The notes below the pieces were generated by a model. It was not told the origin of the DNA and did not search any database. It saw nothing but the letters and a program-made list of their open reading frames with translations. The position numbers and the translations under genes are program-made. This document shows, piece by piece, positions 1-60,976 of a stretch of DNA of 64,000 nt. The first letter of the stretch is position 1. Each line of letters starts with the position of its first letter. Source of the stretch: Geobacter sp. (lineage in GTDB: Bacteria > Desulfobacterota > Desulfuromonadia > Geobacterales > Geobacteraceae). The DNA is taken from the NCBI GenBank assembly GCA_003574885.1, contig PJFC01000003.1:1-64000 (forward strand), written 5' to 3'.

Positions 1-133
1 TCGACAGCCTGGGACTGTTCTCCCTTCAGGAGCAGTACCAACGGCTCCAGCGCGTTTCATGAACCGCCGTGCACGGAACCGTACGCACGGTGGTGTGGGA
101 GGACGGCGGGGGAGACCCCGCCTCCTACCCGAT
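1..133 (+). mobile_element. Group II intron, 3' end (domains V and VI), truncated by window edge
   Basis: Positions 61-94 form a 34-nt domain V: 63-72 pairs with 85-94 with one G-U. Positions 105-111 pair with 116-122 around a GAGA loop, extended by 100-103 with 123-126, which gives domain VI. The 3' end CTACCCGAT, with an unpaired A at 127, is typical of bacterial group II introns. The next bases, TTAGCC, match an integron attC core, so this is probably an IIC-attC intron. The 5' part, including most of the maturase gene, lies outside the window. Confidence 0.85.
3..62 (+). CDS. C-terminal end of the intron-encoded reverse transcriptase/maturase (partial)
   Basis: An open frame enters from the left edge and stops with TGA at 60-62, giving 19 residues that end LQEQYQRLQRVS. 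The stop overlaps the first base of domain V at 61, which is where the intron-encoded protein normally ends in group II introns with the gene in domain IV. The fragment is too short for a family match on its own. The assignment rests on its position just before domain V, and it could be non-coding intron sequence. Confidence 0.5.
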   Translation, partial: DSLGLFSLQEQYQRLQRVS

Positions 134-138
134 TAGCC
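132..138 (+). repeat. Right-end remnant of the attC site interrupted by the intron
   Basis: The bases right after the intron read TTAGCC. With the G lost to the other side of the insertion this restores GTTAGCC, an R'-type core site. Its reverse complement GGCTAAC is exactly the R'' core of the first cassette's attC at 598-604, as expected for one cassette. The left part of the split attC lies outside the window. Confidence 0.6.
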
Positions 139-165
139 AAGAAAAAACTGAGGAGAAAACTACGA

Positions 166-573
166 GTGAGTGATCCTGTTGAGATGCTTGGAAAACTTAT
201 CTTGCTTGCTGTCATCGGAGCATTTCTGGCGCATCAATCATGGTCGCGGAAAGCGCACCAGCGACAGAACGCCGATGTGTGTACAAGATGCGGAAAAGAA
301 CCAATCAATCAATTACCTCCTGAGCTTGGTGGCCAAGGAACGATGTGCGCTGAGTGCCAAAGAGTAACTCAAAGAAACTATAGAGCAGGCTCATTGTCCT
401 TTTACTCTTTGGCCGTTCTCTTCGGACTAATATTCGCTATTAAGGTTGTCCCAGAAATTACAAGCGGAGTGGATCGCACTGCGGCAGAAGTAATCGTGAT
501 ATTTATTTCTGTCATTGGTCTTTGCGCGGGAGCCGGATTTTGCATTCGCTTCTTTGGAAAGAAAGTCGTATGA
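166..573 (+). CDS. Integron cassette protein 1: zinc-ribbon membrane protein, unknown function
   Basis: This is a 135-residue protein starting with GTG at 166, with AGGAG at 151-155 ten bases upstream. An N-terminal hydrophobic stretch (about residues 7-24) is followed by two CxxC pairs (CTRC and CAEC, about residues 39-65) that could bind zinc. Two further membrane segments follow (about 78-96 and 107-128). It is the only gene of the first cassette, between the intron-split core site and the attC at 598. I do not recognise a named family. Cassette genes are usually expressed from an upstream Pc promoter, which is not in the window. Confidence 0.7.
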   Translation: MSDPVEMLGKLILLAVIGAFLAHQSWSRKAHQRQNADVCTRCGKEPINQLPPELGGQGTMCAECQRVTQRNYRAGSLSFYSLAVLFGLIFAIKVVPEITSGVDRTAAEVIVIFISVIGLCAGAGFCIRFFGKKVV

Positions 574-597
574 GGTTGCTGCAACACTTGAAATAAA

Positions 598-661
598 GGC
601 TAACCAGCGGCGACAGCGGTCTCCGCTGACGCTCCGCCGCTGGCGCCTTGAGACGTTGGAC
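598..661 (+). repeat. attC recombination site of cassette 1
   Basis: The site runs from the R'' core GGCTAAC (598-604) to the R' core GTTGGAC (655-661), which fits GTTRRRY. Between them, 604-612 pairs perfectly with 635-643, and an inner AGCGG/CCGCT stem gives the long imperfect hairpin typical of attC. R'' is the exact complement of the cassette's opening core TTAGCC at 133-138. Confidence 0.85.
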
Positions 662-667
662 AATGAA

Positions 668-1204
668 ATGATAAAAATGACTAATAAAAAAAGAAAGATC
701 GCCAAAGCGCTGATCGCTGCATTTGCATTTGCAATATTGATACTTATAACGATATTGGCAATTGTGCCTAAGAAGGACATTATTAATTTCATATTTAAGT
801 TTGAAAGAGATGCAAAAATATCTGCGTCAGGCATCAATATTTTCGTAAACAAAGATAATTTTCTGGTGATATCTGACAAAGATCCAATAATTATTGTCAA
901 TAATGATACTGGGTTTAATTTAACTTTGACCCAACTAGATAAGGACTCCGATTTAAATATTTATAAAAATAATTTCAGACTTCTAGGAAAACAATTTACT
1001 TTAGCTAGATATAACGTTGGAGGTAAGATTGTTGAAGCTATTGAAGTCACTGATAAAGATCCATCAGGAGACAAACTGGAGATAAAAATGTTGTTGAAAC
1101 CAAACCTTAGTCTCTCAATCGAGCTCAACACAGACAATGAAGAAGTAAAAAAAGCGCACATAAAGCATGTGCTGATAAACAATGTGAATTGGGTTGATAA
1201 ATAA
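668..1204 (+). CDS. Integron cassette protein 2: membrane-anchored hypothetical protein
   Basis: The likely start is ATG 668 (or 677), directly after the attC. The reading frame continues upstream, but only through attC sequence. The product of about 178 residues has a lysine-rich N-terminus, one transmembrane helix (about residues 15-36), and a soluble, Asn/Asp/Lys-rich extracytoplasmic part. No family is recognised. The gene is much more AT-rich than the surrounding chromosome, which fits a laterally acquired cassette. No strong ribosome-binding site is visible. Confidence 0.65.
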   Translation: MIKMTNKKRKIAKALIAAFAFAILILITILAIVPKKDIINFIFKFERDAKISASGINIFVNKDNFLVISDKDPIIIVNNDTGFNLTLTQLDKDSDLNIYKNNFRLLGKQFTLARYNVGGKIVEAIEVTDKDPSGDKLEIKMLLKPNLSLSIELNTDNEEVKKAHIKHVLINNVNWVDK

Positions 1205-1207
1205 AAT

Positions 1208-1291
1208 GGCTCACCCGATGGATATCAAACATCGGCGTAGACTCTGACGCGGCAAACTGCGCCGCGCAGGTCACGCCGCGCCCCGTTATGA
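1208..1291 (+). repeat. Probable attC site of cassette 2
   Basis: A strong imperfect hairpin (GGCGT..ACGCC outer stem, ACGCGGC/GCCGCG inner stem, about 1234-1276) ends at the core GTTATGAC (1285-1292). The left core is not clear, so the left boundary is approximate. The right core is the exact complement of GTCATAAC at 1770-1777, the R'' core of the next cassette, so the junction is sound. Confidence 0.65.
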
Positions 1292-1302
1292 CAGGAATTA
1301 AA

Positions 1303-1776
1303 ATGACAATGATGAATTCGATCACAGCTGACGATTTCATATCCTTTCGGGATTTCGACTTGAATTGGCGGTTTACCGACCCAAAACATAACCTCTTACC
1401 GGAAGAAGACCTCTCAGAAATTCACCCTCTCTCAAGAACAATGTCGATACAACTCTACGAACAAACAGAGAAATATCTCGGTAACGCCACCCTGGAGAAG
1501 TCAAAATTCCAAACAATCGAATCTCACGAAATAACTGAGGATCATGAAGAAGTAAGAAAATGGCTGAAAGAGAAAATAATTAATCCCCAAACCCAGGTAG
1601 CGGTCTCATGGGACAAAACAACTTGTGCCGTAACCACTTGGAAAATTTTCTGCAAATATTGGGATGACTTTTGTTATCCAAGCTCTGATGACATCCTGAT
1701 ATGGGCTTCATCAGAAGGTTGGATTCTGAATTACTGCCACCACGAAATTCTTGAATTTGGAGTTCTGAAGTCATAA
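1303..1776 (+). CDS. Integron cassette protein 3: soluble hypothetical protein
   Basis: Start ATG 1303 is chosen because AGGA lies at 1293-1296. An in-frame ATG at 1288 lies inside the attC core and is less likely. The product is about 157 residues, acidic, rich in Trp and aromatic residues, with no signal peptide or membrane segment. The pattern W-x-F near residue 20 followed by a Leu-Pro-x-x-Asp-Leu stretch and an I-x-P-L motif recalls DUF2947-type proteins often seen in integron arrays, but this is a memory-based suggestion. The stop codon overlaps the R'' core of its own attC. Confidence 0.65.
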   Translation: MTMMNSITADDFISFRDFDLNWRFTDPKHNLLPEEDLSEIHPLSRTMSIQLYEQTEKYLGNATLEKSKFQTIESHEITEDHEEVRKWLKEKIINPQTQVAVSWDKTTCAVTTWKIFCKYWDDFCYPSSDDILIWASSEGWILNYCHHEILEFGVLKS

Positions 1777-1831
1777 CCATCGGCACGACCGGGCCTAAAA
1801 ACCCGCCCGGTCAGCCTCAGCACCGTTACCC
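1770..1831 (+). repeat. attC recombination site of cassette 3
   Basis: The R'' core GTCATAAC (1770-1777) is the perfect complement of this cassette's opening core GTTATGAC (1285-1292). A perfect GACCGGGC/GCCCGGTC stem lies in the middle (about 1787-1812). The site closes with GTTACCC at 1825-1831. The length of 62 bp is normal for attC. Confidence 0.85.
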
Positions 1832-1844
1832 AGAGAAAAAGAAG

Positions 1845-2309
1845 ATGATCTGTCCAAAATGCAAAGCTGAATATCGAGAGGGATTTCTCACCTGTGCAGA
1901 CTGTGAGGTTCCTCTGGTCAATGAACTATCTCCACTACAGGAAGTTGATCTTCCCGTAGACCTTGAAAAGTCCGAATTTGAGAAAGTCTTTGAAACCTAC
2001 GACAGCTACGAATTTTTGGATGCATGTAAGGTCTTGAAAGATGCAGGAGTCCCATTCACAGGCGATGAGTGGTACACCGGCGAATTTCGCGCTACAAGAC
2101 GTGCCCAAGCTCCATACGTATGGGCAGTTCTGGTGCCAGCGGAAAGGAAGAATGAAGCACTTCGGCTGCTTGAGGAAAAGAAAGCAGGTGAACCAATCAC
2201 GTTTTCTCAAACAGAAACTGAACCTATGAAGCCGAAAGATGCTTGGATGCTATTGGCAATCATGGCGATCTTTGCTGCTCTCATGGTGATATTGATTTGG
2301 AGAGGGTAG
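1845..2309 (+). CDS. Integron cassette protein 4: zinc-ribbon protein with C-terminal membrane anchor
   Basis: This is a 154-residue protein. The N-terminus carries a CPKC...CADC zinc ribbon (residues 3-21). It is followed by a soluble alpha/beta region (about 45-130) resembling the DUF2007/putative signal-transducing domain that often follows such ribbons, and one C-terminal transmembrane helix (about 132-151) ending in a short Arg-rich tail. The start ATG 1845 follows a purine-rich AGAAAAAGAAG. It lies alone between two attC sites. The function is unknown. Confidence 0.7.
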   Translation: MICPKCKAEYREGFLTCADCEVPLVNELSPLQEVDLPVDLEKSEFEKVFETYDSYEFLDACKVLKDAGVPFTGDEWYTGEFRATRRAQAPYVWAVLVPAERKNEALRLLEEKKAGEPITFSQTETEPMKPKDAWMLLAIMAIFAALMVILIWRG

Positions 2310-39261: not shown

Positions 39262-39405
39262 CGCGCTCGTGCCCTTCCAGATGCCTACGAGGTTAGCTGA
39301 CGGGCTTGAGGCTGAAAGTCCTCATCCGGAACAAACCGGATTCGCCCCTGTAAACTGGGTCCCCCGCATCCGTTCTCTAACGGATCTCGGCTGCTTGCTG
39401 CAGAT
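39262..39405 (-). promoter_or_regulatory. c-di-AMP riboswitch (ydaO-yuaA type)
   Basis: The minus strand holds the conserved blocks of this class in order: GCCGAGATCCG, GGGGGACCCA, GGGGCGAATCC, CAGCTAACCTCGTAGGC and GGGCACGAG. A terminator follows at once and then the potassium transporter gene. Potassium uptake genes are classic targets of this riboswitch. Confidence 0.88.

Positions 39406-60697: not shown

Positions 60698-60774
<77 letters not shown>

Positions 60775-60899: not shown

Positions 60900-60976
<77 letters not shown>

Follow-up and report, generated by a model that had tools for sequence, protein, structure and literature searches.

A group IIC intron sublineage that very probably inserts into the top strand of integron attC sites in Geobacter and related bacteria

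Group IIC-attC introns have been invoked in a model of gene cassette formation. They insert at the R'' box on the attC bottom strand, cutting at TTGT/T, and lie opposite to the cassettes; the canonical members also retain terminator targeting (PMC7923331). The published IIC-attC introns are described as bottom-strand insertions, antisense to the cassettes (PMC9229058). An antisense insertion of S.ma.I2 separates the cassettes from Pc and provides an outward promoter (PMC8876359). A same-orientation case in Enterobacter cloacae is cited in PMC7923331, and a plasmid intron of Shewanella algae KC-Na-R1 has been published as cassette-sense in a class 1 integron (PMC9229058). The S. algae intron is found here in sense orientation in the aadA1 attC at AAGCGT/TAGATGC, which agrees with that report. 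No lineage of sense-strand attC introns was found in the literature searched, which lacked some key older papers.

The window analysed here is a stretch of 64,000 nucleotides from Geobacter sp. Its first 133 nucleotides are the 3' part of a group IIC intron and comprise the end of the maturase ORF and domains V and VI (Table 1). Position 1 is the start of contig G000:C10, and the intron is cut at this edge. The Rfam group II intron model RF00029 matches positions 62-133 of the + strand with 42.3 bits (gathering score 40; E = 5.9e-5 with the whole window searched). Positions 58-133 fold into two clean hairpins (-49.5 kcal/mol, z = -6.6); none of 200 shuffles equals this. Match and fold bear out the preliminary description, which had placed domains V-VI of a group II intron at 61-133. 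Only the C-terminal 20 residues of the maturase are present in the window, and their frame and position match those of the complete relatives L102 and L103, whose intron-encoded proteins (IEPs) end in LQRVS. Comparison with about 70 other copies fixes the last intron base at 133 (...CCTACCCGAT, a CCCGAT end). The exon had been read as TTAGCC directly after the intron. It is indeed the remainder of an attC core, but only one T is exonic.

The 5' exon is off the contig and is expected to supply GT. The restored R' core GT+TAGCC is then an exact complement (7/7) of the R'' core GGCTAAC at 598-604, as had been proposed, and GGCTAAC opens a strong hairpin which closes with GTTGGAC at 661. There is a second copy of the intron in the genome, 131 nt long, at the start of another contig (G000:C3:1-131; RF00029 score 46.9 bits). 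Its core, GT+TGGAC, differs from that of the window copy and is again complementary at 7/7 positions to the R'' of the next cassette, GTCCAAC. Two distinct cores are each matched in full, so chance is unlikely. The window holds an array of four cassettes with successive attC sites between 134 and 2400; ordinary chromosomal genes follow downstream of about 2400. The claim that the intron sits in an attC core and heads a cassette segment thus stands. The ORF of the first cassette has weak Pfam matches, all below threshold. A finder based on strict attC boxes missed most sites in the source genome, and looser scans and reading by eye were used instead; the MAFFT alignment of the attC sites was too poor for a covariance model.

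Table 1. Features of the intron 3' end and the cassette array in the window.
Feature	Position	Strand	Basis
Intron-encoded reverse transcriptase/maturase ORF, 3' end (..LFSLQEQYQRLQRVS)	1-62	+	stop TGA at 60-62
Domain V, hairpin with 2-nt bulge	63-94	+	RF00029 match, fold, column counts
Domain VI, loop GGGGGAGACCCC as in most clade members	96-131	+	fold, alignment of 72 copies
3' exon TAGCC, rest of attC R' box (GT/TAGCC)	134-138	+	junction from other copies
First cassette body	134-597	+	sense ORF 166-573, 135 aa, GTG start, GAGGAG upstream
First cassette attC, R'' GGCTAAC, R' GTTGGAC, R' box reads ACGT/T	598-661	+	self-complementarity with intron 3' exon, hairpin
Second cassette ORF, 175 aa, sense	677-1204	+	
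Probable attC of second cassette, R' CCCCGT/TATGA	1207-1291	+	read from sequence
Third cassette ORF, DUF2947-like	about 1288-1776		
Third cassette attC	1771-1831	+	
Fourth cassette ORF	1845-2309		
Fourth cassette attC, last in segment	2339-2400	+	read from sequence

The intI gene is located on contig C16, and the array segment is on a separate contig, C10. Three contig ends (G000:C13:1, G000:C14:1 and the end of G000:C16) begin with the same GTTCAACT-type head, which runs into short repeats rich in TA. What looks like a similar small gene comes next at C14 and C16, with intI beyond it at C16. These ends may be the heads of three separate cassette arrays. Elsewhere in the window there is a c-di-AMP (ydaO/yuaA) riboswitch at 39267-39402 on the minus strand (84 bits). 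There are also two tRNA genes of identical sequence on the minus strand (60701-60774 and 60903-60976), either side of a third tRNA.

The cassette ORFs of the window and C3 segments are on the intron strand, which places the intron at the R' box of the top strand. Orientation was called from unannotated ORFs and attC boxes. Like the canonical class, the intron is inserted in an attC site, but it occupies the top strand, R' and the sense orientation in place of the bottom strand, R'' and the antisense orientation.

The intron family is present in 61 of the 147 related genomes searched. Nineteen copies from about 16 genomes of the order, both copies of the source genome included, form one clade (FastTree on the last 133 nt; support 0.989). 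The window copy appears to belong to it, judged by its last 133 nt and 3' exon, as the contig starts there. All 18 readable 3' exons in the clade start with TA or TG, against 10 of 48 in other IIC copies (Fisher p = 2e-9). Nine 5' exons are readable: seven are attC hairpins and two, in L163 and L178, are intrinsic terminators. The attC site is thus a preference of the clade, two of nine members being at terminators. In each of the seven attC-type 5' exons an upstream sense ORF ends 52-66 nt before the junction. The ORF which starts within about 110 nt past the intron is sense in 17 of 18 clade copies; L114 has the one 3' exon with an antisense first ORF. No attC was seen among the 5' exons compared outside the clade. 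An exact search for the clade signature found none in viral contigs, and the signature is nearly absent from other sampled parts of the phylum. The sublineage is so far known only from the bacterial order of the source genome.

Canonical IIC-attC maturases are found in the same order (L206, L207, L208, L209, L217 and L221), with 54-55% identity to that of the IMP-4 integron intron. The 3' ORFs of these copies are antisense in five of six and unclear in one; both plasmid controls (L192 and L193) are likewise antisense. The ratio of sense to antisense is 17/1 in the clade versus 0/7 among callable canonical copies (p = 2e-5).

Various clade copies are incomplete or interrupted. L101, L104, L105, L106 and L107 keep only the terminal 126-235 nt at the 3' side of the intron; the 3' junction is of the normal attC type, and the sequence that abuts the 5' junction is unrelated and consists, in L105, of a repeated palindrome. 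The intron L112 (3862-4524) measures 663 nt and has lost the maturase ORF, while its two attC junctions are intact; it is possible that this is an ORF-less intron mobilised in trans. The maturase gene is apparently interrupted by a REP-type transposase ORF in L164 (genome G014) and by a repeated palindromic sequence in L165 (genome G028). The maturase of the G062 intron, L102, lacks about 32 residues of the maturase domain compared with L103, and this copy may be non-functional.

The window fragment could itself be a dead remnant, 5'-truncated or damaged in domain V, that persists as a passenger of the array. This possibility has some weight, although it is less likely than not, and it is compatible with the preferred reading of where the intron came from. 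Several clade members are 5'-truncated some 126-235 nt from the 3' end, and no 5' half of the intron was seen elsewhere in the readable assembly. A search of the genome with the sequences of two relatives found one short relic only, at G000:C16:87267-87294. The relic (L115) is an intron 5' end (GTGCGCCCGGCAGGGCGCGTGGCGGGTATGTGGGATGAATG) which abuts an intrinsic terminator, and the remaining intron is absent. However, nine contigs of less than 3 kb are all N and were outside this search; they may contain the 5' half, and an early reading of its absence as truncation was set aside. Both copies in the genome are broken by a contig start at a nearly equal point, as expected of a collapsed repeat. 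In domain V, position 72 is C in the window copy and T in 71 of the 72 aligned copies. This C converts a U-G pair beside the bulge to C-G and keeps the fold, and the idea that it is damage was dropped; it might nevertheless affect intron activity.

Clade IEPs are class C maturases, with a match to the GsI-IIC reverse transcriptase at 8e-137 and to TIGR04416 at 399 bits. In an IQ-TREE phylogeny of 32 maturases the four clade members group together (100/100). They are sister to terminator-type introns (joint group 95/90), and a 98/98 branch divides the clade and the terminator IIC maturases from canonical L192 and L193. Several branches lie between the clade maturases and that of the S. algae intron. 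Some plasmid rows are long-branched, and interpretation is confined to the well-supported marked forks. The IEPs of the relatives thus nest in the terminator IIC introns and not in the IIC-attC lineage; that of the window copy is mostly off the contig. The label "IIC-attC type" in the preliminary description does not hold: the intron occupies R' on the top strand in sense orientation, and the maturases of its relatives fall among those of terminator-inserting IIC introns. Since these maturases are apart from the canonical ones, targeting of the attC top strand seems to have an origin of its own, separate from that of the canonical class.

Nine relatives have a hairpin upstream of the insertion and a short IBS1; this flank of the window copy is off the contig. 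EBS1 was placed in a conserved GGGC...GCCC hairpin of domain I by aligning the 5' regions of 26 introns. It reads ACG(U) in all nine clade members with a readable 5' end, and the 5' exon ends in CGT in 9/9. The insertion site of these relatives is therefore CGT/T and not the canonical IBS1/IBS3 of TTGT/T; the 5' exon of the window copy is off the contig. When EBS1 is set against the final four bases of the 5' exon in all 26 introns, Watson-Crick pairs form at 80 of 104 positions, against a mean of 44 and a maximum of 61 when the pairing is permuted (0 of 20000 reach 80). EBS1 is fixed at ACG in the attC clade only. On the top strand of the attC sites of the source genome, C precedes the R' GTT in 13 of 15, while on the bottom strand the equivalent base is present before R'' in 0 of 14; both counts come partly from reading by eye. 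CGT thus has a match on most top strands and on no bottom strand, which points to base pairing as what sets the strand. Most simply, the strand would be selected by EBS1-IBS1 pairing, with the attC hairpin substituting for a terminator hairpin.

The attC insertions might be incidental to a general terminator-inserting IIC intron, given that attC hairpins resemble terminators. Two clade members (L163 and L178) are located after intrinsic terminators, and canonical IIC-attC introns retain terminator targeting too. This account is improbable nonetheless: of the readable exons, all 18 on the 3' side and seven of the nine on the 5' side fit attC, there is no attC among the compared 5' exons outside the clade, and EBS1 is fixed at ACG in this clade alone. 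Least credible is an ordinary IIC-attC intron of the S.ma.I2 type, with a sense look that comes from misreading the array direction of a near-palindromic attC; the R'' and R' boxes do mirror each other, so that core complementarity alone gives no direction, and GT/T insertion is common to both kinds of intron, but in the large majority of copies the cassette ORFs either side of the intron share its strand, and the gene before it stops 52-66 nt short of the junction; canonical relatives of the same order have the opposite orientation by the identical test, and the two sets of maturases are separate lineages.

Positions 1-133 of the window are thus very probably, as far as can be judged from sequence, the 3' terminus of a retro-intron whose IIC sublineage reverse-splices into the attC top strand at R'. 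The sublineage resembles the class C-attC introns such as S.ma.I2 in being group IIC, in its attC target, in the GT/T cut in a conserved box and in the upstream hairpin. It differs in its strand (top, not bottom), box (R', not R''), site (CGT/T, not TTGT/T), orientation (sense, not antisense) and separate maturase branch. Its nearest kin in maturase and RNA are the terminator-inserting IIC introns of Geobacteraceae and relatives, which share recognition by hairpin and EBS1/IBS1; the clade is itself occasionally found at terminators. Unlike the clade, those introns have a variable EBS1 matching a T-rich IBS1, and 5' exons which are intrinsic terminators. The S. algae intron is sense and at the R' position, as in the present lineage; however, it and the E. 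cloacae case are isolated and occur in resistance integrons, and the maturase of the S. algae intron shares 46% identity and has another place in the tree.

The lineage was probably derived from terminator-targeting IIC introns. Recognition would proceed as in those ancestors, by the hairpin and then IBS1, with an invariant EBS1 that matches GT and the one base preceding the R' box. Insertion at CGT/TRRRY, directly past the attC hairpin, would give a cassette-sense intron. By analogy with endonuclease-free IIC introns, the intron RNA may enter single-stranded or replicating DNA, and the sense intron could splice out of cassette transcripts. The split R' would block IntI recombination at the occupied attC. 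The clade is somewhat more likely than otherwise to be a second, convergent attC-specialised IIC lineage, on the strand which IntI leaves unrecombined, with three EBS1 nucleotides setting the strand and silent splicing from cassette transcripts. A separate lineage on the other attC strand in the same bacteria would mean that attC targeting arose more than once, with strand choice following from a simple rule of base pairing. A further prediction of sense insertion is that downstream cassettes may be expressed after splicing, unlike those behind an antisense S.ma.I2.
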